Shown here piece by piece: positions 5,234 to 27,342 of a stretch of 64,000 bases of DNA. Origin of the DNA: Mesorhizobium sp. (GTDB lineage Bacteria > Pseudomonadota > Alphaproteobacteria > Rhizobiales > Rhizobiaceae); contig SAJS01000008.1 of assembly GCA_004017535.1 (NCBI GenBank), forward strand, positions 186,001 through 250,000, read 5' to 3'. Position 1 is the first letter of the stretch, and each line of letters begins with the position of its first letter. A program made the translations under genes and the position numbers. The notes under the pieces were generated by a model. The model made no database searches. It worked only from the letters and a program-made list of their open reading frames with translations, and was not told the DNA's origin.

Positions 5234-7603
5234 TCAGGATCTCGGCTTGGTCTTCTGCGGATCGTAATGGGCAAAAGCCACGACGCGCGCCGGCAGCCGT
5301 TTGGCATGGCCGTCGAGCTTGCCGATTTCAACCTCCGTGCCCATCTCGGCATGGGTGACGTCGAGCCGCGCCAGCGCGATGGTCTTGCCGAGCACCGGCG
5401 AGCGCATGCCGGAGGTGACGACGCCGATCTGGGCGCGGCCGACATGCACGCAGTCGCCATGGCCGACGGCGACGTTGGCGTCGATGTCGAGGCCGACGAG
5501 CCTGTGCTGCGGATGTTCCTTGCGCCGGATCAGCGCGTCGCGGCCGATAAAGTCGTCGGCCTTGGTCTTCAGCGGCACGGTGAAGCCGATGCCGGCCTCG
5601 AACGGATCGGTCCGGTCGGAGAATTCGTAGCCGGCGAAGATCAGCCCGGCCTCAATGCGCACCATGTCGAGCGCCTGCAGGCCCATCGGTTTCAGCCCAT
5701 GCGGCTGGCCGGCTTCCCAGACGGCGTCGAACACTTTTTCCGCGTCGCGCGGATGGCACCAGATCTCATAGCCGAGCTCGCCGGTATAGCCGGTGCGCGA
5801 GACCACCACCGGAACGCCGTTGCCGCCGCCGATGCGGGCGACCGCGAAGCGGAACCATTCGAGCTCACCGATCGAGGGCTGCACCGGCGAGGTCCAGACG
5901 ACTTCTCTCAGGATGTCACGGCTCTTCGGTCCCTGCACGGCGATGTTGTGCATCTGGTCGGTGGAAGAGCGAACCAGCACGTTGAGGCCGAGCTTCTTGG
6001 CGGTCTCGCGCAGCCATTCGCCTGAGAAATCGTCGCCGCCGACCCAGCGGAAATTGTCCTTGCCGAGTCTCAGCAGCGTGCCGTCGTCGATCATGCCGCC
6101 ATGCTCGTAGCACATCGCCGTATAGACGACCTGGCCGACGCCGAGCTTTTTGACGTCGCGGGTCAGCGTGTATTGCAGCAGCGCCTCGGCGTCCGGTCCC
6201 GTGACCTCGAACTTGCGCAGCGGCGACAGGTCCATGAGCACCGCGTCCTGCCGGCAGGCCCAGTATTCGGCGATAGGGCCTTCCTTGGCGAAGGAATTGG
6301 CCAGCCAATAGCCCCTGTATTCGACGAAGTCGCGCGTGTGCTTGGCAAAGCTCGAATGAAAGGCTGTCTCGCGGGTCATTTTCGGTTCCGAGTCGGGCTT
6401 CATGCGTCTGGCGATCGCTCGCGAGAACTTGTGCTGGCCGGAATAGGTCCGCACATGGATGTCGGTGAGGTCCCAGCCATTGGCGGGCGTGGTGTCGTCC
6501 GGGCAGGCCGAGGACACGCAGACGATGTCGGTCAGCGCGCGCAGCAAAACATAGTCGCCCGGCCGCGACCAGGGTTCGTCCGACACCATCACGCCGTGCG
6601 CGTCGATCGCCGTGTTGAAGAAGAAGTTGATGGCCATCCAGCCGGCGCGAGGCGTGACACCCTTGTCGGCAAGCGCCTTGTTGAAGTTCTCCGAGCAGTT
6701 GGTGTGGCCCGGATAGCCGATGTCGTCGTAATATTTGGCGGCGCAGGCGAGCGCGAAGGCATCGTGCCGGCCGCATGTGTCCTGCACCACCTCGACCAGC
6801 GGCTCCATGTCCTGATCGTAATATTTCGAATGCAGGCCGGGCATCGGATAGGCCGAGCCCATCAGCGTGCGCGTCGTCGTCACGTCGAGCGGCAGATCGT
6901 GCCCCTTGTCCAGCTTGCGTGCCGAAAAGCACTGGAAATCGGTGCACTGCCGCCCGTCGACGTCGATAATCTGCAAATAGTCGCCGGCCTTGACGAAATA
7001 GGATTCGGCGGTCGCCGAATGCACCCTGAGATCGAGCACCGGATCGGCGAGCGGATCGGCAAGCTGCCCTCTTGCCTTCAGCCGGATCGTGGCGCGGCGC
7101 ACCAGGACGGTCAGCGGCGTCGCTGTGTTATGCCCGTCGACCAGCATTGGCCCGCCGGGCGCCGCGATCAGCAGCGCGCCGTCGCGCTGCACGGAAAAAC
7201 TCTGCTCGGTGCCCGCCGGCGTGGCGCCGCCGAACACGCGCACGGCCTTCGGTTGGTCGAGTTCCACCCTGCGGCGCTCGAGGCTGAGGCGCAACGCAGC
7301 GAGACTGTCGTCGCCTTCGGCGAGCAGCGCCTTGATGCCGGCGGCGTTGCTGTTCGACCGTTCACCGAAAATGCCGGGATCGGTGATCCCCGTTTTATCC
7401 CAGGCCAGCAATTCGCAAGGCTGCCCGCCCTCGTCATTGGTCACACTCACGCTGTCGCCCGCCTCGACGTCGATGAGCACCGCGCCATTGCCCTGCACGG
7501 TGTAGCGCTCCAGCCCGGGGGGCAAGCGGATCTCGCCGGGCCTCAGGATCAGGCTGGGCTTGGGCGGCCCGGACAGGACGGCGGGGTAGGGCGACTGGCT
7601 CAT
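5234..7603 (-). CDS. tdm: Trimethylamine N-oxide demethylase (DUF1989-GcvT fusion)
   Basis: A 789-residue two-part protein. The N-terminal half, from about residue 190 to 400, is a DUF1989 domain with IDVDGRQCTDFQCFSA, PMPGLHSKYYDQDMEPL and GYPGHTNCSENFNKAL. The C-terminal half, about 410-789, is a GcvT/aminomethyltransferase-like tetrahydrofolate-binding domain (VSRTGYTGELGYEIW, PMGLQALDMVRIEAGL). This fusion is the architecture of bacterial TMAO demethylase, which converts TMAO to dimethylamine and formaldehyde, with folate nearby to take the C1 unit. Cys287, Cys303 and Cys367 are the best candidates for the zinc site of the DUF1989 half. The start at 7603 has a strong GGAGGAGGG ribosome site; the longer frame was rejected. 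A related enzyme of urea or guanidine metabolism would lack the GcvT half. The name rests on domain order plus tmm and dmm in the same cluster. Confidence 0.88.
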   Translation of the reverse strand: MSQSPYPAVLSGPPKPSLILRPGEIRLPPGLERYTVQGNGAVLIDVEAGDSVSVTNDEGGQPCELLAWDKTGITDPGIFGERSNSNAAGIKALLAEGDDSLAALRLSLERRRVELDQPKAVRVFGGATPAGTEQSFSVQRDGALLIAAPGGPMLVDGHNTATPLTVLVRRATIRLKARGQLADPLADPVLDLRVHSATAESYFVKAGDYLQIIDVDGRQCTDFQCFSARKLDKGHDLPLDVTTTRTLMGSAYPMPGLHSKYYDQDMEPLVEVVQDTCGRHDAFALACAAKYYDDIGYPGHTNCSENFNKALADKGVTPRAGWMAINFFFNTAIDAHGVMVSDEPWSRPGDYVLLRALTDIVCVSSACPDDTTPANGWDLTDIHVRTYSGQHKFSRAIARRMKPDSEPKMTRETAFHSSFAKHTRDFVEYRGYWLANSFAKEGPIAEYWACRQDAVLMDLSPLRKFEVTGPDAEALLQYTLTRDVKKLGVGQVVYTAMCYEHGGMIDDGTLLRLGKDNFRWVGGDDFSGEWLRETAKKLGLNVLVRSSTDQMHNIAVQGPKSRDILREVVWTSPVQPSIGELEWFRFAVARIGGGNGVPVVVSRTGYTGELGYEIWCHPRDAEKVFDAVWEAGQPHGLKPMGLQALDMVRIEAGLIFAGYEFSDRTDPFEAGIGFTVPLKTKADDFIGRDALIRRKEHPQHRLVGLDIDANVAVGHGDCVHVGRAQIGVVTSGMRSPVLGKTIALARLDVTHAEMGTEVEIGKLDGHAKRLPARVVAFAHYDPQKTKPRS

Positions 7604-7644
7604 CTCAAACCCTCCTCCGAGCGAGAAACAAGTTTGCCTGTGTG

Positions 7645-7658
7645 TAAAATTATTTTCG
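7645..7658. promoter_or_regulatory. AT-rich dyad upstream of tdm
   Basis: AAAATTATTTT is a perfect 11-bp palindrome in an otherwise GC-rich 147-bp gap. On the tdm strand it reads GCGAAAATAATTTTAC, which resembles the GAAA-N4-TTTY core at 20731 and 25901. It lies about 40 bp from the tdm start, suitable for a promoter or operator, but the match to the other boxes is weaker. Confidence 0.35.
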
Positions 7659-7703
7659 CTGAGAGAATAGCAGGGGGAATGTGTTTGGCAAGCACGGGCT
7701 CCA

Positions 7704-7738
7704 CCTTCTCCCACAAGGGGCCACAAGGGGAGAAGGAG
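7704..7738. repeat. CTTCTCCC...GGGGAGAAG hairpin between mgdD and tdm
   Basis: An imperfect inverted repeat with a duplicated CACAAGGGG in the loop. It follows the mgdD stop (7751, minus strand) and may separate the mgs-gmaS-mgd transcript from tdm. Confidence 0.55.
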
Positions 7739-7750
7739 AGGACGTAGCGG

Positions 7751-8374
7751 CTACGCCAGTTCGTCGGAATGGCCGATCGTCACGCCGTACTCTGCAGCCG
7801 AGTCCAGAATCGTGTGCCACAGGCTCTCGGCAAAAGTCGCAAACACCAGGAGATTGAACACTGCCTGCCCGTCACGATCCTTTCCGCGCCACAGCGTGAC
7901 ACTCGTGTGATCCATCGACGTCGCGGCCGCCGCGCCGACTGCAAACACACTAGGATGCAAGTCGATCGACGAGAGCTTGGCGAGCATCGCGCGCGCCTTG
8001 TCGCCGGAGACGCTGATCAGCGCCCGCGCATGCGATTGGTCGGAAAGCGAAGCCGAACCGGCAAAGCCGGCGGCAAGCGCCTCAATCGAATGCTTGCCAC
8101 CCTTCGACAGCACGAGGAACTGATCCGGCCCCGACCAGATCAGCGTCGCATCGGCCGCAGAGACAGCCCTCGGCGTCTCCGGCGCGGCAGCACTGAAGCG
8201 CGCCTTCGCAGCCGCGATCATCTCGCCGGCCTTGCCGCGCCGCGCCATCACCTGGGCAAGGTCGAAATTGTGGATCTCGGTCAGCGACACGCCGGCTTTG
8301 CCTTGCGCGCCATAAGGGCCGGCGACGAGCGCGCGGTCGAGCGGGCTGCGGATGTCCCAGGAAAACTCAGCCAC
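7751..8374 (-). CDS. mgdD: N-methylglutamate dehydrogenase gamma subunit (sarcosine oxidase gamma-like)
   Basis: A 207-residue protein of the SoxG family, the small gamma subunit of heterotetrameric sarcosine-oxidase-type enzymes. It begins with the usual S-P-L region (FSWDIRSPLDRALVAG) and carries a GcvT-like fold fragment with LIWSGPDQFLVLS and SDQSHARALISVSG. It is the last of the four mgd genes. The GTG at 8374 is preferred because GGAGGG lies seven bases upstream; it overlaps the mgdC stop by eight bases. An ATG at 8389 would add five residues but has no ribosome site of its own. By position after gmaS it should serve N-methylglutamate rather than sarcosine, though sequence alone cannot exclude sarcosine. 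Confidence 0.85.
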   Translation of the reverse strand: MAEFSWDIRSPLDRALVAGPYGAQGKAGVSLTEIHNFDLAQVMARRGKAGEMIAAAKARFSAAAPETPRAVSAADATLIWSGPDQFLVLSKGGKHSIEALAAGFAGSASLSDQSHARALISVSGDKARAMLAKLSSIDLHPSVFAVGAAAATSMDHTSVTLWRGKDRDGQAVFNLLVFATFAESLWHTILDSAAEYGVTIGHSDELA

Positions 8375-11348
8375 GCTGGCGCCCTCCATCCGGATCGTAG
8401 AATACGGGATTGCAGAGCTCGACATCGTAGTCCTCGCCGCGCAGCGGATCATGCGCCAGCACGATCTCGCCGATGCGCTCGCGCCCGCGCTCGACGAGGC
8501 CGAGCCCGATCCACTGGTCGAGCACCGGCGAGAAACAGACCGAGGTGACATAGCCTTGGTCGTTCTCGGGGCCGGGCGTTTCGTCCTTCGGAATGATATG
8601 CGCGCCGGAGCGCAGGCGGCGCGCCTTGTCGGTCGGCTTGATGCCGACGACAACCTGCCGGCTTGGCGCGGTGAGCGCCTCGCGGCCGGCCATGACGCGG
8701 CCGACAAAGTCCTTCTTGGTCGACATCATCTTGCCGAGACCGAGATCGCCCGCCGTGGTGGTACCGTTGAGCTCGGGCCCGGCGACATGGCCCTTTTCGA
8801 TGCGCATCACGCCGAGCGCCTCGGTGCCGTAGGGCGTCACGCCGAATGGCTTGCCTGCGATCATCAGGTTGCGCGCCATCGCTTCGCCATAGCGCGCCGG
8901 CACCGAAATCTCGAACGCCATCTCGCCGGAGAAGGAGATGCGGAACAACCTTGCCTTCAGGCCGCCACGCAGCTTGACCTCGCGCGCGCCCATGAACGGG
9001 AAGCCGTCGTTCGACAGGTCCTCGGCCGGATCGATGATCTCCTTCAAGAGGTCGCGGGTCTTCGGGCCGGCGATCGAGAACTGCGCCCACTGATCGGAGA
9101 CCGACGTGAGCTGCACGTCGAGCTCGGGGAACAGAACCTGACGGCAGAATTCGAGATGCTGCATCACCAGTCCGGCTTTGGCCGTCGTGGTGGTGAGGAA
9201 ATAGTGGTCCTCGGCCAGACGCGAGGTCGTGCCGTCGTCATAGACGATGCCGTCCTCGCGCAGCATCAGCCCGTAGCGCGCCTTGCCGACGGCAAGGCTG
9301 GAGAAGGCGTTGATGTAGACACGGTCGAGGAAGGCGCCGGCATCAGGCCCGTGCACGTCGATCTTGCCGAGTGTCGAGACATCGCAGAAGCCGACGCCGC
9401 CGCGCACCGCCTTGACCTCGCGCGTCACCGATTCCAGCCAGTCTTTCTCGCCGGGGCGCGGATACCACTGCGCGCGCTTCCACAGGCCGGTGTCGACGAA
9501 GATGGCGCCCTGTTCGGCAGCCCAGTGATGCGAGGGCGTCAGCCGCGTCGCATGGAAATTCTCGTCGCGGTGATGGCCGGCGAAGGCACCGATGGCGACG
9601 GGCACGTAAGGCGGCCGGTAGATCGTCGTGCCCGTCTCCGGGATCGACTTGCCGCTGACCGCCGCCATGATGGCGAGGCCGGCGACATTCGAGGTCTTGC
9701 CCTGGTCGGTCGCCATGCCGAGCGTGGTGTAGCGCTTCAGATGTTCGACCGATTGAAAACCCTCGCGCTGCGCCAGCTCGACATCGGAAGCCGTGACGTC
9801 ATGCTGCTGGTCGACGAAGGCCTTGCACTTGCCGGCGACATGCCAGAGCGGCGTTAGCGAGAAAGCCGCGTCGTCGGCGACTGGCATCGAGCCGATATTG
9901 CCGCTGCGTCCGGCATCACGTGCGGCGGCAGCGCCGGCTTCGAACCCTTCGCGCAGGCAGGCGCCGAGACCGAAGGCGCCGTTGGCGGCGCCCGCGGCGA
10001 CCATGCCGGGCGGCGCGCCGTCCGGCACGAAGGCGGCGATGTCGTCGCGCCATTTCGGCCGGCCGCGATGATAGGAGGTAAGGCCGACCGCCGGGTTCCA
10101 GCCGCCCGAGACGGCGAGCCCGTCGGCCTCGACCTCTGCGCGCGCGCCGCCGGTCAGCGAGACGGAAATCTTGCGCACTCCGCCCTTGCCGCCTTCGACA
10201 GCGGAGACCGATCCGTGCAGCACCGGGAAGCCGCCCTTGCTGGCAAGCGAGCGATGCGCCGGCGAAACGTCCGCCCGCGCATCGATCACGGCGGCTACTT
10301 GCAACCCGGCGGCGATTGCCGTGTCGGCCGTGCGCCAGCCATCTTCATTGTTGGTGAAGAGCGCGATGCGCCTGGCCGGCGCGGCCGCGTAGCGGTTGAT
10401 ATAGCTGCGCATGGCCGACGCCATCATCACGCCCGGCGTGTCGTTGCCGGCAAAGACGATGGGACGTTCGATCGCGCCGGCGGCAACCACGCAGCGCTTG
10501 GCCACGATCCGCCACAGCCGCTGCCGCACCTGATGCTCCGGCGGCACCGGCAGATGGTCATTGACGCGCTCGATCGCGCCATAGGTGCCGCCGTCGTAGA
10601 CGCCGAACAGGGATGTGCGCGTCATGATGCGCACATCCGGCATCGCCTCAAGTTCCGCAACCGCGCGCGCGACCCATTCAGCTGCGGGCAGCCCGTCGAT
10701 CGTGCCGCCATCGGCAAGCAGCCGCCCGCCAAGGACGAAATCCTCCTCGCACAGGATGACGCGCGCGCCGCTGCGTGCCGCGGCGAGGGCCGCGGCCAGA
10801 CCGGCCGGCCCGGAACCCGCGATCACCACGTCGCAATGTGCCCAGGCCTTGTCGTAGTGGTCGGGGTCGGAAACGCCAGAGGCGCGACCGAGGCCGGCGG
10901 CGCGGCGGATCGCCGGCTCGTAGATCGCTTCCCAGAACTTCGCCGGCCACATGAAGGTCTTGTAGTAGAAGCCGGCGACGAAGATCGGCGCGAACAGCTG
11001 GTTAACCGACATCACGTCGAAATTGAGCGACGGCCAGCGGTTCTGGCTGGCGGCTTCCAGGCCCTCATAGAGCTCGGCCGTCGTCGCCTTGGTGTTCGGC
11101 TCGCGCCTGGCGCCGCTGCGCAATTCGACCAGCGCGTTGGGCTCTTCCGAGCCGGCGGTCAGGATGCCGCGCGGGCGATGGTACTTGAACGAGCGGCCGA
11201 CGAGCCTGACGCCGTTGGCGACCAGCGCGGAAGCCAGCGTGTCGCCTTTAAAGCCCAAAAAATTCTTGCCGTCGAAACGGAAGCTGAGCGCGGTCGAGCG
11301 GTCGATGAGGCCGCCGGATGTGAGACGGTTTGCCTGATCGCCGGCCAT
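8367..11348 (-). CDS. mgdC: N-methylglutamate dehydrogenase alpha subunit (sarcosine oxidase alpha-like)
   Basis: A 993-residue SoxA-type large subunit. Domains in order are: an N-terminal ferredoxin-like region without cluster cysteines (FKGDTLASALVANGVRLVGR, residues about 25-95); an FAD/NAD-binding Rossmann domain (CDVVIAGSGPAGLAAALAAA, about 170-190); a CAAGAIERPIVFAGNDTPG block; and a C-terminal GcvT-like tetrahydrofolate-binding domain from about 600 (GFCDVSTLGKIDVHGPDAG). The heterotetramer oxidises the N-methyl group and passes it to folate as methylene-tetrahydrofolate. The ATG at 11348 overlaps the mgdB stop in a TGATG junction, which points to translational coupling; a GTG one codon earlier is less likely. 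Family members act on sarcosine or N-methylglutamate. The mgs and gmaS neighbours favour the latter. Confidence 0.9.
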   Translation of the reverse strand: MAGDQANRLTSGGLIDRSTALSFRFDGKNFLGFKGDTLASALVANGVRLVGRSFKYHRPRGILTAGSEEPNALVELRSGARREPNTKATTAELYEGLEAASQNRWPSLNFDVMSVNQLFAPIFVAGFYYKTFMWPAKFWEAIYEPAIRRAAGLGRASGVSDPDHYDKAWAHCDVVIAGSGPAGLAAALAAARSGARVILCEEDFVLGGRLLADGGTIDGLPAAEWVARAVAELEAMPDVRIMTRTSLFGVYDGGTYGAIERVNDHLPVPPEHQVRQRLWRIVAKRCVVAAGAIERPIVFAGNDTPGVMMASAMRSYINRYAAAPARRIALFTNNEDGWRTADTAIAAGLQVAAVIDARADVSPAHRSLASKGGFPVLHGSVSAVEGGKGGVRKISVSLTGGARAEVEADGLAVSGGWNPAVGLTSYHRGRPKWRDDIAAFVPDGAPPGMVAAGAANGAFGLGACLREGFEAGAAAARDAGRSGNIGSMPVADDAAFSLTPLWHVAGKCKAFVDQQHDVTASDVELAQREGFQSVEHLKRYTTLGMATDQGKTSNVAGLAIMAAVSGKSIPETGTTIYRPPYVPVAIGAFAGHHRDENFHATRLTPSHHWAAEQGAIFVDTGLWKRAQWYPRPGEKDWLESVTREVKAVRGGVGFCDVSTLGKIDVHGPDAGAFLDRVYINAFSSLAVGKARYGLMLREDGIVYDDGTTSRLAEDHYFLTTTTAKAGLVMQHLEFCRQVLFPELDVQLTSVSDQWAQFSIAGPKTRDLLKEIIDPAEDLSNDGFPFMGAREVKLRGGLKARLFRISFSGEMAFEISVPARYGEAMARNLMIAGKPFGVTPYGTEALGVMRIEKGHVAGPELNGTTTAGDLGLGKMMSTKKDFVGRVMAGREALTAPSRQVVVGIKPTDKARRLRSGAHIIPKDETPGPENDQGYVTSVCFSPVLDQWIGLGLVERGRERIGEIVLAHDPLRGEDYDVELCNPVFYDPDGGRQRG

Positions 11349-11623
11349 CACGCACCAACCTTGGCTGCGCCTGCGCCTGCAGCCGCCTCAACCGCCGAAA
11401 TCTCATGCGTCAGCGTGTTGCGCGTGACCTTCAGCCAGGCCCGGCAGCCGCCGCCGTGATACCAGTGCTCGCTCATCACGCCGGCGATGTTGTCGCGCAG
11501 ATAGACGTAGTCGTAGACTGCGTCCTCGCCGGCATCGGCCGCGGGACGTTGGGGCTTGGCGTCGCCGAGATAGGTGAACTCGCCGAGCTCGCGTTCGCCG
11601 CAGAAAGGACAGGTAATACGCAT
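11348..11623 (-). CDS. mgdB: N-methylglutamate dehydrogenase delta subunit (sarcosine oxidase delta-like)
   Basis: A 91-residue SoxD-family protein. Cys5 and Cys8 (CPFC at the N-terminus) together with the HWYHGGGC segment (His53/His56 and Cys60) match the structural zinc site of the sarcosine oxidase delta subunit. It has no catalytic role of its own and stabilises the heterotetramer. The gene lies between mgdA, with a 15-bp gap, and mgdC, with overlapping start and stop, in the usual B-D-A-G order of this enzyme family. Confidence 0.9.
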   Translation of the reverse strand: MRITCPFCGERELGEFTYLGDAKPQRPAADAGEDAVYDYVYLRDNIAGVMSEHWYHGGGCRAWLKVTRNTLTHEISAVEAAAGAGAAKVGA

Positions 11624-11638: not shown

Positions 11639-12892
11639 TCAGTGCAGGTTCGGTTGGGCGCCCTGGCCCTTCTCGTCGATCATGGCGCCGCGCTGGAAGC
11701 GGTCGAGGCGGAAGCGGGCAGCCTCCTTGTGTGACTCGTCGCGCGCCAGAAGATGAGCGAAGACGAAGCCTGACCCCGGCGTTGCCTTGAAGCCGCCATA
11801 GCACCAACCGGCATTGATGTAGAGGCCGTCGACCGGGCTCTTGTCGATGATCGGCGTGCCGTCCATCGACATGTCCATGATGCCGCCCCACTGGCGTAAG
11901 AGCCGCACGCGGCCGATCATCGGGATCAGCGCCATGCCGCCTTCGCAGACATCCTCGACGACCGGCAGATTGCCGCGCTGGGCGTAGGAATTGTAGCCGT
12001 CTATGTCGCCGCCGAAGACGAGCCCGCCCTTGTCCGACTGGCTGACATAGAAATGTCCGGCGCCGAAGGTCATGACATTGGGCAAGAGCGGCTTGATCGC
12101 TTCCGACACGAAGGCCTGCAGCACATGGCTTTCGATCGGCAGGCGAAGCCCCGCCATCGCCGCGACACGTGAGGATGAGCCCGCCACCGCCATGCCGACC
12201 TTGCCGGCGCCTATCTTGCCGCACGACGTCTCGACGCCGGTCACCTTGCCGTTGGCGTCGCGCGTGAAGCCGGTGACCTCGCAATTCTGGATGATGTCGA
12301 CACCGAGCGCGCTCGCCGCATGCGCGTAGCCCCAGACCACGGCGTCGTGGCGGGCCGTGCCGCCGCGGCGCTGCAGCAGCCCGCCCTGGATTGGAAAGCG
12401 CGCATTCTCGAAATTCAGGAATGGCAGCATTTTGCGCAGCGCCGCCTGGTCGAGCAGCTCGGCATCGATGCCGTTGATGCGCATCGTGTTGCCCCGCCGG
12501 GCGAAGGCGTCGCGCTGCGCGTCGGAATGGTAGAGGTTGAGCACGCCGCGCTGGCTGACCATCGCGTTGTAGTTGAGGTCCTGCTCCATCCGCTCCCACA
12601 GCTTCATCGACAATTCGTAGAAGCCGGTATTGCCGGGCAGGCCGTAATTGGAGCGGATGATGGTGGTGTTGCGGCCGGCATTGCCGGAGCCGATCCAGCC
12701 CTTTTCGAGCACAGCGACGTTGCGGATGCCGAACTCGCTGGCGAGGAACCAGGCGGTGGCGAGCCCGTGCCCGCCGCCGCCGATGATCACCACGTCGTAG
12801 CGATCCCTTGGCGCCGCATCGCGCCACGTAGGCTTCCAGTTCTTGTGGCCGGAGAGGGCGGCGCGGGCGAGCGAGAAGATCGAATATTTCAT
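11639..12892 (-). CDS. mgdA: N-methylglutamate dehydrogenase beta subunit (sarcosine oxidase beta-like)
   Basis: A 417-residue FAD-dependent DAO-fold subunit. The N-terminal dinucleotide motif VVIIGGGGHGLATAWFL spans about residues 34-50. The motif GGTARHDAVVWGYA contains His182, which corresponds to the histidine that binds FMN covalently in sarcosine oxidase beta subunits. The C-terminal INAGWCYGGFKATPGSG loop is also characteristic. This subunit holds the amine-oxidising site of the tetramer. The start at 12892 (MKYSIFSLARAAL) fits SoxB N-termini; the longer frame reaches into gmaS and was rejected. It sits 38 bp after gmaS, which supports N-methylglutamate as substrate. Confidence 0.9.
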   Translation of the reverse strand: MKYSIFSLARAALSGHKNWKPTWRDAAPRDRYDVVIIGGGGHGLATAWFLASEFGIRNVAVLEKGWIGSGNAGRNTTIIRSNYGLPGNTGFYELSMKLWERMEQDLNYNAMVSQRGVLNLYHSDAQRDAFARRGNTMRINGIDAELLDQAALRKMLPFLNFENARFPIQGGLLQRRGGTARHDAVVWGYAHAASALGVDIIQNCEVTGFTRDANGKVTGVETSCGKIGAGKVGMAVAGSSSRVAAMAGLRLPIESHVLQAFVSEAIKPLLPNVMTFGAGHFYVSQSDKGGLVFGGDIDGYNSYAQRGNLPVVEDVCEGGMALIPMIGRVRLLRQWGGIMDMSMDGTPIIDKSPVDGLYINAGWCYGGFKATPGSGFVFAHLLARDESHKEAARFRLDRFQRGAMIDEKGQGAQPNLH

Positions 12893-17244: not shown

Positions 17245-17310
17245 GCCAGCCTCCGGCGTTTTTTGGCTCTCAGATGATGTACTCAATGAGCGAGCCGAAT
17301 TCAATTGGTA

Positions 17311-17324
17311 TGAAAGAAATTTTC
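17311..17324. promoter_or_regulatory. AT-rich GAAA/TTTC dyad upstream of mgsA
   Basis: TGAAAGAAATTTTC lies in the 86-bp gap between the 109-residue membrane protein and mgsA. It resembles the boxes at 20731 and 25901 (GAAA-N4-TTTY), but the left flank differs. It is offered as a weak member of the proposed regulon motif and possible internal promoter of the mgs operon. Confidence 0.3.
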
Positions 17325-17330
17325 CTGTGG

Positions 17331-19974: not shown

Positions 19975-19989
19975 GATGTTTTCCCCGAG

Positions 19990-20367: not shown

Positions 20368-20378
20368 GGGTTCTCCCT

Positions 20379-20666
20379 TCAGGATTGGCGGTTGCGAGCC
20401 GCGTCGGCGTTCTTGATGTCGAGGCCGTAGATGAAGTCCTTGTCTTCCTTGTAGTGGTTGAGCATTGCCAGGATGGCGGCGGTGTTGAAGATCAGTACCG
20501 CGGCAGCCGCGATCACCACCACGAGCTTGATCCCGCTGTCGGGGATGTAGGCCCAGGTCATCAGGAGGACGAAGAGGATTGTCGCCCACAGGCAAACAAT
20601 CAGGAGCACGGATCCACGCACGTCGGAGCGGTACAGCGCTTCGATGCGCTGCTGCAGGTCGGACAT
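20379..20666 (-). CDS. 95-residue two-pass membrane protein (unknown function), first gene of the operon
   Basis: Two hydrophobic segments, SVLLIVCLWATILFVLLMTW and LVVVIAAAAVLIFNTAAILA, follow a short amphipathic N-terminus (MSDLQQRIEALYRSDV). The C-terminus is polar. The start at 20666 has GGGGAA about seven bases upstream; a longer frame to 20717 was rejected. It opens the run of minus-strand genes that leads into the permease and the mgs-gmaS-mgd operon, and it faces dmmD across a 294-bp intergenic region with a candidate operator. Confidence 0.78.
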   Translation of the reverse strand: MSDLQQRIEALYRSDVRGSVLLIVCLWATILFVLLMTWAYIPDSGIKLVVVIAAAAVLIFNTAAILAMLNHYKEDKDFIYGLDIKNADAARNRQS

Positions 20667-20714: not shown

Positions 20715-20744
20715 CACTCTTTCAACAGAGTGAAATTTTTTTCA
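20715..20744. promoter_or_regulatory. Candidate operator between the small membrane-protein operon and dmmD
   Basis: CACTCT-TTCAAC-AGAGTG (20715-20732) is a perfect inverted repeat. It runs into TGAAATTTTTTTCA (20731-20744), which contains TGAAA-N4-TTTCA. The 17 bases from GAGTGAAATTT match the site upstream of tmm (25899-25914) with one difference. The site is about 50 bp from the minus-strand start and 215 bp from dmmD. Nothing else was recognised in the 20667-20960 gap. Confidence 0.55.
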
Positions 20745-20960
20745 TAAATACCGCTCGATTCCCGAAATTGTCAAGCCGGATTTACGCGCCACAAAGCGTT
20801 TGTCCACGAGCTAGAAATTTGCCTGACAATGAAATTATTTGCTTCAAGGGGATTGCAGGGCTTAGCCGTTTGCGGTCAATATTCGAGCAAGCTCCGCCAC
20901 CAAGCAGGAGCAGGGAACGGCAACTGCTTAAAGCGACCTAATCGCACGGAGGACGATCGG

Positions 20961-22094
20961 ATGACGGCATCCTGGAGATTCTCGACCCTGGCGGATCGCC
21001 ATCGCGCGCTCGGCTCGAAGCTCGAGGACTGGAGCGGCATGGGCACCGCCTGGACCTATGACAAGGACGCCGACGAGGAATATATCGCGATCCGCACCAA
21101 GGCCGGGCTGATGGACGTCTCCGGCCTGAAGAAGGTCCACATCACCGGGCCGCATGCCTCGCATCTGATCGACCTCGCCACGACGCGCGACGTGGAGAAG
21201 ATCTATCCCGGCAAGTCGGCCTATGCCTGCATGCTGAATGAGGCCGGCAAATTCACCGACGACTGCATCCTCTACCGCATCAGCCCGAACTCGTGGATGG
21301 TCGTGCACGGCTCCGGCACCGGCCATGAGGAGCTGCAGCGCGCTGCCATGGGCCGTGACGTCTCGCTGCGCTTCGACGACAATCTGCACGATTTGTCGCT
21401 GCAGGGGCCGACCGCCGTCGACTATCTGGCCAAGCATGTGCCCGGCATCCGCGACCTTCCCTATTTCCATCATATGCAGACGCAGCTCTTCGGCTTGCCC
21501 GTCATGATCTCGCGCACCGGCTACACCGGCGAGCGCGGCTACGAGATCTTCTGCCGCGGCCAGGATGCCGGCACGATCTGGGATCGGATTCTGGAGGAGG
21601 GCAAGAGCTCCGGCATCATCCCGTGCCGCTTCACCACGCTCGACATGCTGCGCGTCGAGAGCTACCTGCTCTTCTATCCTTACGACAATTCCCAGAAATA
21701 TCCGTTCGAGAATGAAGGCCCCGGCGACACGCTGTGGGAGCTCGGCCTGGACTTCACCGTCAGCCCCGGCAAGACCGGCTTCCGCGGCGCCGAGGAACAC
21801 TACCGGCTGAAGGGCAAGGAGCGCTTCAAGATCTATGGCGTGCTGCTCGAGGGCAAGGAGCCGGCGGACGAAGGCGCGCCGGTCTACCGCGACGGCAGAC
21901 AAGTCGGCGTGGTGACCTGCGCCATGTATTCGCCCCTGGTCGAGAAATCGATGGGCATCGCCCGCCTTGACGTCGACTGCGCGGTCAAGGACACCAAGCT
22001 CGAGATCCGCAACAGAAGCGGCTCGATCAAGGCGACGGCGCAGCCCTTGCCGTTCGACGATCCGAAGAAGACCAAGCGCACCGCCAAGGGTTAA
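20961..22094 (+). CDS. dmmD: Dimethylamine monooxygenase associated GcvT-like protein DmmD
   Basis: A 377-residue stand-alone tetrahydrofolate-binding GcvT/aminomethyltransferase-family protein. It shows MDVSGLKKVHITGPHASHLI, VMISRTGYTGERGYEIFC and SLQGPTAVDYLAKHV. It leads a four-gene run whose members match the dmmDABC set for oxidative demethylation of dimethylamine, where this subunit is thought to capture the formaldehyde as methylene-tetrahydrofolate. The start at 20961 is preceded by GGAGGA; a longer frame from 20829 has no such signal. A generic glycine-cleavage T-protein is ruled out by context. Confidence 0.85.
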   Translation: MTASWRFSTLADRHRALGSKLEDWSGMGTAWTYDKDADEEYIAIRTKAGLMDVSGLKKVHITGPHASHLIDLATTRDVEKIYPGKSAYACMLNEAGKFTDDCILYRISPNSWMVVHGSGTGHEELQRAAMGRDVSLRFDDNLHDLSLQGPTAVDYLAKHVPGIRDLPYFHHMQTQLFGLPVMISRTGYTGERGYEIFCRGQDAGTIWDRILEEGKSSGIIPCRFTTLDMLRVESYLLFYPYDNSQKYPFENEGPGDTLWELGLDFTVSPGKTGFRGAEEHYRLKGKERFKIYGVLLEGKEPADEGAPVYRDGRQVGVVTCAMYSPLVEKSMGIARLDVDCAVKDTKLEIRNRSGSIKATAQPLPFDDPKKTKRTAKG

Positions 22095-22193: not shown

Positions 22194-22790
22194 ATGGCAG
22201 CCAAGACGATCATCAGCCGGCCCATTTACGGAACGCTCTCTCCGCAGCCGGGTAAGCATCATCTCTTCATCGCCGATGCCGAAGGCGCGCTGGCGATCAT
22301 CGACATGGCAGGCAAGGCTCCGCCCGGCTTTTTCGACGGCGCGGAAATCGACTTCATTCCAGGCCCGGAGGGCAAGCATATCGCGGCCCTGGAAGCATTG
22401 AAGCCGGCGCAACTCCATCTGTCGCCCTCCTTCGCCAGCCTCCTGCCGCGTCTCAAGCAGACGCTGACCAACGCGCATATGGGATTGCGGATTTATCTTG
22501 CCGGCACCGAGGGCCTGATCGGCCAGGCGATGCAGGTGGCGCTCGAAGCCGGCGTGGACCACACCTTCATGCAGACCGAGCATCGCGGCTCGTTGGCGCG
22601 GCGCATGCAATGCGTGCACTGCAAGGGCATCACCGAGAACGTCACGACGCAGCCGGCGCTCTGCTCGCATTGCGGCCTGCTGCTCCTGGTGCGCGATCAT
22701 TATTCGCGGCGCCTCGCCGCCTTCCAGGGCGTGTGCATCAACGCCGAGGATCGCTCGGAGATTCCTCCGATGGAGGAGGCCTTCCCATGA
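22194..22790 (+). CDS. dmmA: Dimethylamine monooxygenase subunit DmmA (zinc-ribbon protein)
   Basis: A 198-residue protein with no familiar enzyme fold. The middle looks like a Rossmann-type nucleotide-binding fragment (IYLAGTEGLIGQAMQVALEA). The C-terminal part carries a C4 zinc ribbon or iron site, Cys140-x2-Cys143 and Cys157-x2-Cys160 (MQCVHCKG and LCSHCG). Order and size match dmmA of the dmmDABC operon. Its start follows a palindromic element, and its stop overlaps dmmB by four bases (ATGA). The exact role of this subunit in the oxygenase is not evident from sequence. Confidence 0.82.
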   Translation: MAAKTIISRPIYGTLSPQPGKHHLFIADAEGALAIIDMAGKAPPGFFDGAEIDFIPGPEGKHIAALEALKPAQLHLSPSFASLLPRLKQTLTNAHMGLRIYLAGTEGLIGQAMQVALEAGVDHTFMQTEHRGSLARRMQCVHCKGITENVTTQPALCSHCGLLLLVRDHYSRRLAAFQGVCINAEDRSEIPPMEEAFP

Positions 22791-23752
22791 GCACCGGCAC
22801 CACCAAGCTCGATGTCGTGGTCAGTGACGTCGTTCCCGTCAACGAGCTGGTCACGCGCTTCCATTTCCGCCGTCGCGACGGCGGCCTGCTGCCGACTTTC
22901 TCCGGCGGCGCCCATGTCGTGGTCGAGATGCGCGACCGTGACCGCACCAGGCTCAACCCCTATTCGCTGATGGGCTCGCCGCTCGACACGCGCGAATACA
23001 CGATCTCGGTGCGCCGCGACGATGTCGGCCGCGGCGGCTCGCTGTTCATGCACCGGCAGGTCAAGCCCGGCCTGGAGATGGTGATCAGCTATCCGGTCAA
23101 TCTGTTCTCTCTGGATCTCAGGGCGAAGAAGCACCTGATGCTGGCTGGCGGCATCGGCATAACGCCGTTCATGGCGCAGACCTCGCAGCTGGCAGCGGCC
23201 GGCGGCAATTTCGAATTGCATTACACCTGTCGCACCGCTTCGCTCGGCACCTACGCTGATGTCTTGCAGCAGCGCTACGGCAGCCGCGTCCACCTCTATC
23301 ACGATGACCGCGAGGAGCGCATCGATCTCGACCGGCTCCTGTCCTCGCAGCCGCTCGGTACGCATCTCTATGTCTGCGGCCCGGCCGGAATGATCAACTG
23401 GGTGCGCGACCGCGCAGCTAGCCTCGGCTGGCCCTCGGAAACCGTGCATTTCGAGCATTTCGCGGCACCCCAGCCCGGCGCGCCCTTTGACGTGGCCTTG
23501 GCCCTCAGCCACAAGACAATCCGCGTCGGCGAGCAGCAGAGCCTGCTGGAAGCCATGGAAGCAGCCGGCGTCGATCCGCCTTATCTCTGCCGCGGCGGCG
23601 TCTGCGGCCAGTGCGAGACCAATGTGATCTCGTCCGACGGCAAGTTCATCCACAACGATCACTGGCTGAGCGAGGAAGACCACCGTTCCGGCTGCAAGAT
23701 CATGCCTTGCGTCTCGCGCTTCGAGGGCAAGTCGCTGGTCCTGGAAAGATAG
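22787..23752 (+). CDS. dmmB: Dimethylamine monooxygenase reductase subunit DmmB (PDR/VanB type)
   Basis: A 321-residue ferredoxin reductase of the phthalate dioxygenase reductase family. It has a flavin-binding motif NPYSLMGSP (residues 57-65), a nucleotide-binding GGIGITPF (121-128) with YVCGPAGM (195-202), and a C-terminal plant-type [2Fe-2S] domain with Cys268, Cys273, Cys276 and Cys308. It carries electrons from NAD(P)H to the oxygenase. GGAGGAGG lies ahead of the ATG at 22787, inside the end of dmmA, so the two are coupled. Confidence 0.88.
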   Translation: MSTGTTKLDVVVSDVVPVNELVTRFHFRRRDGGLLPTFSGGAHVVVEMRDRDRTRLNPYSLMGSPLDTREYTISVRRDDVGRGGSLFMHRQVKPGLEMVISYPVNLFSLDLRAKKHLMLAGGIGITPFMAQTSQLAAAGGNFELHYTCRTASLGTYADVLQQRYGSRVHLYHDDREERIDLDRLLSSQPLGTHLYVCGPAGMINWVRDRAASLGWPSETVHFEHFAAPQPGAPFDVALALSHKTIRVGEQQSLLEAMEAAGVDPPYLCRGGVCGQCETNVISSDGKFIHNDHWLSEEDHRSGCKIMPCVSRFEGKSLVLER

Positions 23753-23761
23753 GAGGGGTCA

Positions 23762-24802
23762 ATGGGCATCACCTTTCGCAAGGAAACCTTTCGCGACGAC
23801 TACACCTTCAGGAACAGCCCGGAGCACATCAGGCGCTTTCCGTTTCCGTTCAACGAAGACGCCTACATGTACGCGGTCAACATCGAGCCGCATGTCGTCG
23901 GTCCGAAGGGCAGCGTGCTCGAAAACCTGATCGACGTCGACGAGCACTATGTCGCCGAGATGCAGGATCGCGCCTTGGTCCTGGCAGAGGATCCGCTGCG
24001 CTGCCAGTCGCTGCCGCATATGACCCTTGCCGGCTGGGACCTGCTCGAGCTTCTGATGGAGCAGCAGGCGCTGGGTTATCCCGAGCATTTCACGCTGGAG
24101 CGCGATGGCGACCGCTGGCGCTGGATCAACCGGCCGCTCGGCATCGACGACACCTTTACCTTCGGCGACACCTCGACGCTGCCCTATGGGCCGATGGAAT
24201 ACATCACCCGCCAGAGCCAGGGCGATTTCTGCATCCTCGACCAGCGCGACGGCAATCTGTGGATGGATGCCGGCATGGTTACCACCCAGGCCGACTGGTC
24301 GCTCGATTTCGACATCGGCATGAACTTCTTCGAATGGCACGCGCCGGTGCCGCTGGCGCACGAGAAGGGCATCTTCACCCGCGCGCTGAAATTCCTCACC
24401 AACATCCAGCAGGGCAAGCCGGCCAGGCGCCTCAACTGGACGATGACCATCAATCCGCGCCTCGACACCAGCCCAGAGAACTATCACAAATGGGGTCCGG
24501 ACCGCGCTACGGTCACCCCCGAAAACGTCGGCGAGAAAGTGCATCTGCGCGTCGAATTGCAAAGCTTCTGGCGGCTGCCGCGCTCCAACGCCATCGTCTT
24601 CCCGATCCGCTGCTACCTGATCAAGATGGACGAGCTGGTCACCCAGCCGAAATGGGCGCGCCGCCTGCACCGCGTCATCCGCGACCTGCCGGAGGAACTC
24701 GCCACTTACAAGGGCCTGACGCGGTATCGGCCGACGCTGGTGGAGTGGCTGTCGAAGCTGGATGATGGCAGCCCGACTTCACCGGGATTTGGACCGGACT
24801 AG
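23762..24802 (+). CDS. dmmC: Dimethylamine monooxygenase haem-type subunit DmmC (DUF3445)
   Basis: A 346-residue DUF3445 protein, the family of haem-dependent oxidative N-demethylase catalytic subunits with a PAS-like fold. Characteristic segments are RFPFPFNEDAYMYAVNIEP, TQADWSLDFDIGMNFFEWH, INPRLDTSPENYHKWGPDR and LHRVIRDLPEELATYKGL. It would activate oxygen to remove one methyl group from dimethylamine, giving methylamine and formaldehyde, with electrons from DmmB. The start at 23762 has GGAGGGG immediately upstream. Letter assignments follow the gene order D-A-B-C; the haem ligand was not pinned down. Confidence 0.87.
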   Translation: MGITFRKETFRDDYTFRNSPEHIRRFPFPFNEDAYMYAVNIEPHVVGPKGSVLENLIDVDEHYVAEMQDRALVLAEDPLRCQSLPHMTLAGWDLLELLMEQQALGYPEHFTLERDGDRWRWINRPLGIDDTFTFGDTSTLPYGPMEYITRQSQGDFCILDQRDGNLWMDAGMVTTQADWSLDFDIGMNFFEWHAPVPLAHEKGIFTRALKFLTNIQQGKPARRLNWTMTINPRLDTSPENYHKWGPDRATVTPENVGEKVHLRVELQSFWRLPRSNAIVFPIRCYLIKMDELVTQPKWARRLHRVIRDLPEELATYKGLTRYRPTLVEWLSKLDDGSPTSPGFGPD

Positions 24803-24972: not shown

Positions 24973-25695
24973 CTAGCCCGCGCTATTCTGCGGGTAGCAG
25001 ATGATCGACAAATACCGCATCGGCAGTTGCGTCAGCTCTTCCGGGCCGTGCGGCGCGTCGGCGTCGAAGAACAGGCTGTCGCCCGGCTTCATCGGATAGA
25101 GATTGTTGCCGTGCCGGTAAACCACCTCGCCTTCGAGCATGTAGAGGAATTCCATGCCCGCATGCTGGAAGGTCGGGAACACGTCCGAATTCTCTGTCAG
25201 CGTGATGAGATAGGGCTCGACGACGACGCCGCTGGTGTTGGCGCCGATATGTCCCAGCAGATTGTACTGGTGGCCGGCGCGCGTGCCGCGCCGCTCGACA
25301 TCGACGCCTTCGCCCGCCTTGACGAAGACGGCGCTGTGCTCTTCCTCGAAGCGGCGGAAGAAGGCGGTCACCGGAACGCCCAGCGCCCGCGACAGCGCCT
25401 GCAATGTCGTCAGCGACGGCGAGGTGATGCCGTTCTCGATCTTCGACAGCATGCCGAGCGAGATGTCGGTGGCCGCGGCAAGATCGGCGACGGTGATGCC
25501 GAGCTTCTTGCGGAAGGCCCGCACCTCATGGCCGATCGCCACTTCGAGCACCTTTTCGCGCGTGTCGCGGATGGCGTGCGGGTTCTGCGTCAGCGGCGCT
25601 CGGATCGAGCGTCCGTCGGCCGAAACGCGTTTCGGCGGCGCCTTGTCCTTGGTGACCGCAGCGGCGGGCATTGTTTTGGAAGTCTTGGTTGCCAT
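24973..25695 (-). CDS. XRE-family regulator with C-terminal cupin, probable regulator of the island
   Basis: A 240-residue regulator. A helix-turn-helix of the XRE type (VRAFRKKLGITVADLAAATD, then SLGMLSKIENGITSPSLTTL) spans about residues 55-110. A C-terminal cupin (about 165-235) has GMEFLYMLEGEVVYRHGNNL and PGDSLFFDADAPHGPEEL, suited to binding a small effector. The first 40 residues are basic and probably disordered. It sits between dmmDABC and tmm, and its own upstream region contains the GAGTGAA half-site found at other island promoters. Control of the island by a methylamine-type ligand is inferred. Confidence 0.85.
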   Translation of the reverse strand: MATKTSKTMPAAAVTKDKAPPKRVSADGRSIRAPLTQNPHAIRDTREKVLEVAIGHEVRAFRKKLGITVADLAAATDISLGMLSKIENGITSPSLTTLQALSRALGVPVTAFFRRFEEEHSAVFVKAGEGVDVERRGTRAGHQYNLLGHIGANTSGVVVEPYLITLTENSDVFPTFQHAGMEFLYMLEGEVVYRHGNNLYPMKPGDSLFFDADAPHGPEELTQLPMRYLSIICYPQNSAG

Positions 25696-25735: not shown

Positions 25736-25900
25736 CATATGCGGTGGCGATACAGGAGCGCAACCGCGAGGGCAAGCTAACCGATGTCGCGGCAATTCTT
25801 TATGGCGGTTTCCATTTTCCGCCGAAATCCGTTTGCCGCAAAGCCCTTGCCCCCAGATGCCAGTTGACAGCACCGAAGACCCAATTACTGTCACTGTGAG

Positions 25901-25914
25901 TGAAATTTGTTTCG
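25901..25914. promoter_or_regulatory. Candidate operator upstream of tmm
   Basis: GAGTGAAATTTGTTTCG (25898-25914) matches the site at 20728-20744 over GAGTGAAATTT-N-TTTC. It lies 70 bp from the tmm start. The AT content is far above the neighbourhood, so chance cannot be excluded from one copy, but the match across two promoters is long. Confidence 0.5.
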
Positions 25915-25919
25915 TGAGA

Positions 25920-25943
25920 GCAATTCCAACCGTCCGGAATTGC
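25920..25943. repeat. Shortened palindromic repeat in the tmm leader
   Basis: GCAATTCC-AACCGTCC-GGAATTGC is an 8-bp stem with an 8-base loop. It is a deletion form of the 43-bp repeat seen at 1633, 44479 and 54620, having lost the interior segment. It lies between the candidate operator and the ribosome site of tmm. Confidence 0.75.
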
Positions 25944-25983
25944 GTCAAGAAAAAAGTCGAAATCAAAAATGAGGAGGCCCGCA

Positions 25984-27342
25984 ATGAAATCTCGTGTCGC
26001 CGTCATCGGAGCCGGACCGTCGGGCCTGGCCCAGCTCAGGGCCTTCAAGTCGGCCGCCGACAAGGGCGCCGAAATCCCGGAAATCGTCTGTTTCGAAAAG
26101 CAGAGCGACTGGGGCGGCCTGTGGAACTACACCTGGCGCACAGGCCTCGACGAGCATGGCGACCCGGTGCATGGCTCGATGTACCGCTATCTATGGTCGA
26201 ACGGCCCGAAGGAATGCCTCGAATTCGCTGACTACACTTTCGAGGAGCATTTCGGCCGGCCGATCGCCTCCTATCCGCCGCGCGCCGTTTTGTGGGACTA
26301 CATCAAGGGCCGCGTCGAAAAATCAGGTGTGCGCAAATGGGTGCGCTTCAACACACCGGTGCGCATGGTCACCTACTCCGACGAGACGAAGAAGTTCACC
26401 GTCACCGCGCATGACCGCACCAATGATGTCACCTACTCGGAAGAGTTCGACAATGTCGTCGTCGCCTCCGGCCATTTCTCCGTGCCCAACGTGCCCTATT
26501 TCGAGGGCTTTTCCACCTTCAACGGCCGCATCCTTCACAGCCACGACTTCCGCGATGCGATGGAGTTCAAGGGCAAGGACATCCTGATCATTGGCCGTTC
26601 CTATTCGGCCGAGGACATCGGTTCGCAGTGCTACAAATACGGCGCCAAATCGATCACCACCAGCTACCGTTCCAAGCCGATGGGCTTCAAATGGCCGGAC
26701 AACTGGAAGGAAGTACCGCTGCTGCAGAAGGTTGTCGGCAAGACGGCGCATTTCAAGGACGGCACTACCAAGGATGTCGACGCCATCATCCTGTGCACCG
26801 GCTATCTGCACTCCTTCCCCTTCCTTACCGACGACCTAAAGCTGAAGACCACCAACCGCATGTGGCCGCTGGGTCTCTACGAGGGCGTCGTCTGGGAGAA
26901 GAACCCGAAGCTGTTCTACATAGGCATGCAGGACCAGTTCTACACCTTCAACATGTTCGATGCGCAGGCCTGGTACGCCCGCGACGTCATCATGGGCCGC
27001 ATCAAGCTGCCGTCGGCCGAGGCGATGGCCGAGCACAGCGCCAAGTGGCGCGCCCGCGAAGAGACGCTGGAAGACGCCGAGCAGATGATCTGGTTCCAGG
27101 GCGACTACACCAAGGAGCTGATGGACCAGACCGATTATCCGGGCTTCGACGTCGAGGCGGTCAACCACACCTTCATGGAGTGGGAGCATCACAAGATGGA
27201 AAACATCATGACCTTCCGCGACAACGCTTATCGCTCGCTGATGACCGGCACCATGGCCCCGGTCCATCATACGCCGTGGCTGCAAGCGCTGGACGATTCG
27301 ATGGAGAGCTATCTCGAGGTGAAGGGCGTGGCGGCGGAGTAG
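25984..27342 (+). CDS. tmm: Trimethylamine monooxygenase (flavin-containing monooxygenase)
   Basis: A 452-residue bacterial FMO that oxidises TMA to TMAO with NADPH and oxygen. Motifs are the FAD-binding GAGPSG (residues 9-14), the FMO signature [11 protein letters not shown] (179-189, F-x-G-x3-H-x3-F), and the NADPH-binding [10 protein letters not shown] (204-213). [18 protein letters not shown] near residue 37 and [20 protein letters not shown] resemble characterised Tmm closely. GGAGG precedes the ATG at 25984. Related FMOs act on other amines, but the tdm and dmm genes nearby make TMA the natural substrate. Confidence 0.9.

Follow-up and report, generated by a model that had tools for sequence, protein, structure and literature searches.

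A trimethylamine-to-glutamate gene cluster of Mesorhizobium with a candidate amine uptake block and a putative XRE-cupin switch

Introduction

The enzymes that degrade methylated amines are well known, while the literature is less clear on how methylamine enters the cell and how the pathway is switched outside the Roseobacters. The closest described system is the published Ruegeria cluster SPO1548-1588 (PMC13390433; this and the other papers cited by PMC number are drawn on through parts of their text). Aminobacter holds the gene set together with serine-cycle genes, and one strain splits it between chromosome and plasmid (PMC8235418). Closer to the present case, Mesorhizobium 1M-11 has the monooxygenase Tmm and the N-methylglutamate pathway and grows with trimethylamine (TMA) as its only source of both carbon and nitrogen; M. 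loti has gmaS, yet shows no methylotrophic growth on methylated amines (PMC4653772). How does the cluster of another Mesorhizobium compare? The window analysed here is a 64-kb stretch (bases 186001-250000 of contig C72, in a genome of 6.86 Mb), and by the demethylase Tdm its closest seven named relatives are Mesorhizobium strains at 95-97% identity. It carries the genes tdm, mgd, gmaS, mgsABC, dmmDABC and tmm. These enzymes are ordinary, and the set is largely textbook and not rare. The less ordinary parts are a block of six genes between dmmD and mgsA and an XRE-cupin regulator gene, xreC. Our best explanation joins a complete pathway, the block as an amine uptake system and XreC as the cluster switch; taken as a whole, we place it just on the probable side.

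A six-gene block that changes places with an Amt gene

The block (17331-20666, minus strand) consists of s1-s2-s3-apc2-u229-mem1. A known family can be assigned to apc2 alone: it qualifies as a member of the APC superfamily, and its best NCBIfam match, the ethanolamine permease TIGR00908, stays at 167.8 bits under a cut-off of 381.75, so that it does not qualify as that permease. None of s1, s2, s3, u229 and mem1 reaches a Pfam or NCBIfam cut-off. The order and direction of the six genes recur in relatives whose identity falls to between about 25% (u229) and 67% (apc2). The arrangement dmmD, six block genes, mgsA is found in 37 of 38 further Mesorhizobium cluster loci, the single miss being L249 from genome G037, which is without s2, and again in L114. 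Four other loci (L104, L107, L111, L192) have the block before mgsA without an adjoining dmmD. On a Paracoccus aminophilus plasmid the same six genes stand beside mgsABC-gmaS, an Aminobacter plasmid shows the first four within the stretch viewed, and elsewhere the block is near tmm or serine-cycle genes. Two samples served for counting, 99 Mesorhizobium genomes and, more widely, 190 Alphaproteobacteria. In the latter s2, our marker for the block, occurs in four genomes including this one, three of them with gmaS or mgs genes nearby.

Two variants of this setting were also seen. Loci L050 and L056 (Mesorhizobium loti LU and 1M-11, the latter being the strain reported to grow methylotrophically; PMC4653772) have a second cluster type with the block beside tmm-tdm and homologues of ppc and glyA. 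On plasmid p2 of Pararhizobium qamdonense (L124:18073-22991) the block has as its neighbour a glutamine synthetase (GS)-family gene whose product shares 28% identity with GmaS, and no mgs is annotated in the vicinity; perhaps this is a pathway for another amine.

Is the block always there? In some relatives its site is taken by an Amt-family gene (PF00909, 185.2 bits). At E<=1e-100 this gene is present in 9 of the 99 Mesorhizobium genomes (94-100% identical to the query), and it fills the dmmD-mgsA gap in all nine. The marker s2 is present in 82; no genome has both and eight have neither, which puts the nine Amt genomes among the 17 without s2 (Fisher p 1.4e-8, a value that ignores kinship). 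Five of the eight with neither transporter are also without xreC, and in one genome with neither, G001, a 362-base gap is left at the site. Another 46 loci were examined, many only partly in view: three from plasmids, the others with a less similar Tdm. At least nine of them have an Amt gene, 39-67% identical and of either orientation, in the mgsA-dmmD interval. Two others show it next to mgsA where dmmD falls outside the stretch viewed, and its position is different in L083 and L084. Four changes between block and Amt are needed both on a dmmD tree (49 tips) and on one of mgsABC-gmaS (52 tips), with 3-5 and 3-4 changes, respectively, over 60 bootstraps, compared with 6-9 when the labels are shuffled. 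This near one-for-one exchange is a natural experiment and points to a candidate carrier. Since block and Amt are exchanged at one site, the simplest reading is that their function is the same. Amt proteins transport ammonium and also methylammonium, and the best model for apc2 is an ethanolamine permease; for these reasons a small amine is favoured, methylammonium first. Judged from gene content and position, there is an even chance that the six genes form an amine uptake system, most likely for methylammonium.

The regulator xreC and a predicted operator

Which protein would control the cluster? XreC is the only regulator whose gene was found inside it. Its gene is present in 94 of the 99 Mesorhizobium genomes. 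In the wider sample it occurs in 27 genomes, and mgsC is matched in 34, in 23 of them at >=70% identity; xreC and such an mgsC are found together in 18 and within 5 kb in 14, a group from which the window is absent, its two genes being 10.7 kb apart. Plasmid records number 243 for mgsC and 247 for xreC, with equal counts in the nine genera given by name for both genes (not matched record by record). Against the PuuR model NF007408 XreC scores 50.8 bits, far from the cut-off of 211, and it does not qualify as a PuuR. The XRE-cupin proteins of Pseudomonas repress genes next to their own and have palindromic motifs (PMC7901475). In Rhodobacteraceae clusters an XRE gene is listed along with amt and glxA, no function being given for it in the part of that source covered (PMC7574528), which was the one pertinent find in the literature for an XRE gene with the N-methylglutamate pathway; the part of PMC5023228 covered mentions neither regulator nor permease.

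Alignment of relatives' promoters revealed a motif, AGTGAAATTTnTTTCrT, common to the gaps xreC|tmm and s1|dmmD. A weight matrix was built from 13 tmm-upstream sites of relatives, with loci of this genome excluded. Across the window it gives six matches of >=10 bits, all upstream of cluster genes (Table 1), and the next best, at 7.4 bits, is upstream of tdm. The tmm/xreC match belongs to the class on which the matrix was trained, and the other five do not. In relatives' window-type loci (counted as loci, not species, and able to overlap within a genome) sites of >=8 bits precede tmm in 12/12, by construction, and xreC in 12/15. Such sites are missing upstream of other cluster genes: gmaS 0/87, mgdB 0/87, mgsC 0/86 and mgdA 0/45 relatives' loci. 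As a control, with the 13-site matrix simple shuffles average 0.26 matches of >=10 bits (n=50), and one of eight genome stretches has a single match of >=8 bits; with a matrix from s1 and tmm sites, dinucleotide-shuffled windows average 0.09 matches of >=10 bits (maximum 2; n=100), and none of >=8 bits is found in the eight genome stretches. The shared predicted operator offers a direct handle on the switch.

Does XreC really bind it? Another regulator, of the TmaR or TmoR type and encoded elsewhere in the genome, might bind the motif, with xreC placed there by coincidence. In R. pomeroyi the AraC-type TmaR binds all these promoters and the GntR-type TmoR the tmm promoter (PMC13390433). A TmaR-like query, the AraC-type gene beside mgd in Rhizobium etli standing in for SPO1584 itself, has no match in the window at E<=1e-3, where an R. 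pomeroyi-type TmaR gene adjoining mgd is thus missing, and none in the genome at E<=1e-60; a weaker match (36%, L188) exists in the genome. The same query is matched in 15 of the 99 Mesorhizobium genomes, far fewer than xreC; TmoR was not searched for. The Pseudomonas precedent also argues for a local XRE-cupin repressor. We therefore regard a different regulator as unlikely, though less so than the alternatives discussed below. In two other genomes a TmaR-like gene does stand beside mgdBDAG-like genes (L189 in G016, L190 in G009), with no mgs found in the stretch examined; in L189 purU- and folD-like genes follow.

The Amt-type loci, those with the Amt gene at the block's site, weigh against XreC as the switch, and they help the rival. 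They keep xreC, but the motif falls below 8 bits at the Amt gene and at dmmD in 10/10 and at mgsA in eight loci; put the other way, all ten dmmD misses are the ten Amt-type loci (of nine genomes), as are 8 of the 13 mgsA misses. The same switch may therefore not act there. The exchange replaced the shared promoter region as well. Other observations weigh in the same direction. When the s1 + tmm matrix was applied to 25 loci outside window-type clusters (6 of them Mesorhizobium), 12 had a match >3 bits and 13 did not, and most of the stronger matches were at mgsA, dmmD or tdm; the xreC-bearing plasmids of Aminobacter and Paracoccus aminovorans had no match >3 bits, and tests of single sites in other genera reached no significance. 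Occurrence of the motif outside window-type clusters is thus suggestive only. Because the dmmD misses all lie in Amt-type loci, our estimate for xreC was lowered and that for a rival regulator raised. On the evidence of gene position and motif, XreC is still probably the switch of this cluster in place of TmaR.

What does the block carry?

APC proteins mostly carry amino acids. Could the block be an amino-acid carrier that retrieves or exports the N-methylglutamate or gamma-glutamylmethylamide made by GmaS and MgsABC? The solved relatives that a sequence search gives for apc2 bear the names of amino-acid carriers or antiporters, and in window-type clusters mgsA follows the block immediately, on the same strand. 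N-methylglutamate or another amino acid is a possible substrate of apc2. The exchange with a gene for an Amt protein speaks against it, as do the ethanolamine permease model and the Pararhizobium block, which adjoins a GS-family gene without mgs; overall we think an amino-acid carrier unlikely. Uptake of a small amine, methylammonium in the first place, has difficulties of its own. The Pararhizobium locus also means that the substrate of the block may vary, and Amt at the dmmD-mgsA site may serve ammonium rather than methylammonium. The nine Amt genomes are few and partly one clade, three genomes have xreC but neither transporter, and since the trees use the cluster's own genes, whole-cluster transfer may have inflated the count of exchanges. 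The predicted fold of u229 is uninformative (mean predicted local distance difference test score, pLDDT, 47.2).

Is anything here new at all? It may be that everything belongs to the known Roseobacter-type cluster: the gene content equals the enzymes of R. pomeroyi SPO1548-1588 with a TmoP added, and an XRE gene is drawn in Rhodobacteraceae clusters (PMC7574528). Five of the six block genes, however, fall below all family cut-offs, and in the parts of the literature covered neither the block nor an operator of these clusters was found described; a search for a methylamine permease of this kind likewise gave nothing naming the block. A cluster with no new part is therefore improbable. In Methyloversatilis, amino-acid permeases located elsewhere and a putative regulator co-clustered with N-methylglutamate pathway genes rose on methylamine (PMC5023235; homology to apc2 and xreC not checked). 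The most far-reaching claim would be that of an undescribed kind of uptake, in which an APC permease with three tiny membrane proteins and two partners is repeatedly swapped, at a single site, with the unrelated Amt channel as methylammonium gate to the gamma-glutamylmethylamide pathway, under one XRE-cupin switch with the enzymes in block-bearing genomes; this is conceivable and somewhat short of an even chance. The weakest alternative, that block and Amt both handle ammonium, recapturing or releasing product nitrogen, and not methylamine, is quite improbable, since the pathway product is glutamate, with free ammonium only after its deamination, and an APC-family ammonium carrier would be unusual, even though Amt proteins are named for ammonium. 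The labels in the literature agree with that name, 'amtB, ammonia transporter' in a Figure 1 legend (PMC5520151) and an ammonium transporter listed in these clusters (PMC7574528).

The enzyme genes

The original prediction placed a complete pathway at 5234-27342. All the genes it named there are open frames, and curated models, domains and solved relatives agree on them (Table 1). The left edge did not hold: tmoP at 3284-4993 extends the island leftwards, and its start is moved to 3284 for that reason. Seven island genes had gone unlisted, the six between dmmD and mgsA and the regulator between dmmC and tmm.

Table 1. Cluster genes and predicted operators in the window. Operator scores are in bits, from the 13-site matrix; fractions are relatives' loci.
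Feature	Position	Strand	Evidence
tmoP, TMAO permease (APC family)	3284..4993	-	NF053774 892.5 bits, cut-off 690
Predicted operator, upstream of tmoP	5093..5114	+	14.9; >=8 bits in 35/36
tdm, TMAO demethylase (DUF1989 + GcvT)	5234..7603	-	NF053776 1269.8 bits, cut-off 1100; 9q59 aligned residues 4-788
Predicted operator, upstream of tdm	7641..7662	+	18.2; >=8 bits in 39/40
mgd gamma subunit (soxG-like), start uncertain	7751..8389	-	TIGR01375 89.9 bits, under cut-off 143.95; PF04268 over cut-off
mgd alpha subunit (soxA-like)	8367..11351	-	TIGR01372 1535.5 bits, cut-off 1164
mgd delta subunit (soxD-like)	11348..11623	-	TIGR01374 116.3 bits, just under cut-off 116.5; PF04267 over cut-off
mgd beta subunit (soxB-like)	11639..12892	-	TIGR01373 689.7 bits, cut-off 529.45; in tree with mgs-linked copies
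gmaS, gamma-glutamylmethylamide synthetase	12931..14238	-	TIGR03105 'type III' 666.9 bits, cut-off 469.6; 7cql match
mgsC, N-methylglutamate synthase FMN subunit (Glu_synthase)	14275..15603	-	PF01645 286.8 bits
mgsB (GXGXG domain)	15612..16328	-	PF01493 48.8 bits
mgsA (glutamine amidotransferase, GATase)	16348..17244	-	PF13522/PF13537
Predicted operator, upstream of mgsA	17307..17328	-	15.2; >=8 bits in 56/69
mem1, 109-residue membrane protein	17331..17660	-	Order kept in relatives; no Pfam over cut-off
u229, 229 residues, N-terminal hydrophobic stretch	17657..18346	-	Order kept in relatives; no Pfam family at E<=5
apc2, 468-residue APC permease, proposed amine (methylammonium) carrier	18393..19799	-	PF00324 108.1, PF13520 94.2 bits
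s3, 53 residues	19813..19974	-	Kept in relatives; annotated coding sequence at same place on other replicons
s2, 125 residues, two hydrophobic segments, block marker	19990..20367	-	In 82/99 Mesorhizobium genomes
s1, 95 residues, two hydrophobic segments, first block gene	20379..20666	-	Kept in relatives
Predicted operator, between s1 and dmmD	20727..20748	+	28.7; s1 >=8 bits in 42/42
Weaker predicted operator, nearer dmmD	20826..20847	+	10.2; dmmD >=8 bits in 40/50
dmmD (GcvT-like, tetrahydrofolate-binding)	20961..22094	+	PF01571/PF08669
dmmA	22194..22790	+	NF041259 113.3 bits, cut-off 60; PF22290/PF22289
dmmB reductase	22787..23752	+	PF00111, PF00175
dmmC, haem subunit	23762..24802	+	PF11927 (HODM_asu-like) 243.8 bits; 5lte match
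xreC, XRE-cupin regulator, proposed cluster switch	24973..25695	-	HTH_3 PF01381 60.9 bits; Cupin_2 PF07883 50.7 bits
Predicted operator, between xreC and tmm	25897..25918	+	34.8; same class as training sites
tmm, trimethylamine monooxygenase	25984..27342	+	NF058570 859.1 bits, cut-off 675; 8b2d match

The gene content is real, and chance is no issue at these model scores. Solved relatives include the trimethylamine N-oxide (TMAO) demethylase 9q59, the bacterial flavin-containing monooxygenases (FMOs) 8b2d and 2xve, GmaS 7cql and HODM 5lte, which covers residues 2-335 of the 346 of DmmC. Tmm passes the equivalog model NF058570 and contains GAGPSG and a second, 11-residue motif, which we take to be the FMO motifs. 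DmmA, a reductase and an HODM-like haem subunit occur together, as expected of a dimethylamine (DMA) monooxygenase, and genes with GATase, GXGXG and Glu_synthase domains adjoin gmaS in the order expected of mgsABC. The catalytic residues of RhGmaS are Asp177, Glu186 and Arg312, and its Ala48 replaces Asp50 of GS (PMC7948447); the window protein retains the matching D178, E187, R315 and A49. A housekeeping GS in the place of gmaS was an outcome that had been allowed for, and it did not occur: GmaS is 26-31% identical to GS-like loci of its own genome (seven of nine others compared), versus 76-82% to three mgs-linked copies outside this genome.

For mgd the picture is less clean. A match to glycine-betaine or sarcosine enzymes had been named as a warning sign, and sarcosine-oxidase models do match: four such subunits stand in order (mgdBDAG), alpha and beta over the model cut-offs, gamma and delta under them, and no separate Mgd model turned up in the curated-model scans of the window proteins. 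The beta subunit yet groups with mgs-linked copies, and two soxB paralogues of the same genome fall outside (17 sequences, including one distant paralogue row; locus L098, with no match covering 85%, and one weak soxA locus were left out). The probable assignment to mgd is based on this tree and on the position beside gmaS-mgsABC; those of mgd and mgs alike thus rest partly on gene order. A plain sarcosine oxidase was judged less likely, from the same tree. Elsewhere in the genome, a candidate second N-methylglutamate cluster on contig C44, with GS and soxA genes 16 kb apart, was rejected, the GS being only 31% identical and soxBDAG standing without mgs. Taking models, domains and gene order together, the pathway from TMA to glutamate is almost certainly complete, and the predicted route through TMAO, DMA, methylamine (MMA), gamma-glutamylmethylamide and N-methylglutamate is well supported.

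Some further features deserve mention. No match to folD or purU was found in the window at E<=1e-3, and formate dehydrogenase was not searched for; mcl, mtkA and mtkB lie together on contig C22 (the genome-wide serine-cycle search was made through mtkA only). At 39577-45601 the window has a second cluster of an FAD oxidoreductase (DAO domain), transporter-like genes and an apparent small helix-turn-helix regulator, called from open frames with a domain scan for the oxidoreductase only. In genome G031 (L115:4657-7021) tdm is divided into two slightly overlapping frames covering model positions 5-380 and 379-762, with the break between its DUF1989 and GcvT domains; the cause may be an assembly error or a frameshift, or Tdm may truly be encoded by two genes here. 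Genomes G003 (L192 and L110) and G011 (L111 and L113) each have two different mgs clusters, with mgsA 88 and 95% identical in the window-type copies and 80 and 76% in the diverged ones.

Distribution and likely use

Is a complete set in a rhizobium surprising? The original prediction took it so, but the set is near-universal in the sampled Mesorhizobium and is also clustered on a Rhizobium etli plasmid and in Ruegeria (PMC13390433). Tdm is over the cut-off in 90 and Tmm in 91 of the 99 genomes, and 88 have both; in 81 of these the two are on one contig, always within 30 kb, at a spacing of 15-25 kb in 66 and <6 kb in 14. As Tmm and Tdm are each found in about nine in ten of the sampled genomes, the cluster may be of importance for the supply of nitrogen in soil and nodules. 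The cell probably uses these amines as a nitrogen source. Since the nitrogen of MMA ends in glutamate and the one-carbon (C1) units leave on tetrahydrofolate, use for both nitrogen and energy is expected, in keeping with the predicted use of methylated amines for nitrogen or C1 energy; growth on them as sole carbon source is doubtful because of the M. loti result (PMC4653772).

A working model

The enzyme steps of the model follow from homology, with their chemistry taken from the family literature. Tmm would oxidise TMA to TMAO, which TmoP would also import, and Tdm would split TMAO to DMA, passing a C1 unit to tetrahydrofolate. DmmABC would convert DMA to MMA, and DmmD probably deals with the formaldehyde. 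GmaS and MgsABC would then combine MMA with glutamate to N-methylglutamate, from which MgdBDAG would regenerate glutamate, a second C1 unit going to tetrahydrofolate. The products of s1-s2-s3-apc2-u229-mem1 may act as one small-amine uptake system, most likely for methylammonium, that feeds GmaS and does the job of the Amt-family protein found at the same site in some relatives. XreC, which has the PuuR/PauR layout, would bind a GTGAAA-type inverted repeat upstream of tmoP, tdm, mgsA, s1, dmmD and tmm/xreC and might keep these units off until an amine or intermediate of the pathway is sensed. The likely gain for the cell is nitrogen, together with energy from the C1 units.

Comparison with known systems

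The R. pomeroyi DSS-3 cluster resembles the window in its clustered tmm, tdm, dmmDABC, gmaS, mgsABC and mgdABCD (PMC5520151, PMC13390433). It differs in having TmaR, TmoR and the ABC transporter TmoXVW (PMC13390433), whereas the window has xreC, the APC-type TmoP and the six-gene block, and no close TmaR. Nearer to the window is plasmid pRetNXC12c of R. etli, where tmoP, tdm, tmm, dmmDABC, gmaS, mgsABC, an XRE-cupin gene and mgd fall in a 24-kb stretch, mgd continuing beyond it. In contrast to the window, tdm and tmm are separated by min genes, the stretch also has folD, purU and a GlxA/AraC gene, and no block genes were found within it. The P. aminophilus plasmid pAMI6 shares the six block genes, here divergent from mgsABC-gmaS, and has two xreC homologues; its enzymes are named in PMC4543880, the covered part of which does not mention the block. 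The PuuR/PauR repressors share with xreC the HTH_3 and Cupin_2 domains and a place beside a gamma-glutamylation pathway, which in their case serves polyamines and in the window methylamine. The ethanolamine permease (TIGR00908) is of the APC family like apc2, but apc2 has three small membrane proteins alongside it. Finally, the Amt/MEP transporters of methylamine clusters share with the block its dmmD|mgsA site, while their family, PF00909, is not that of apc2 (PF00324/PF13520).

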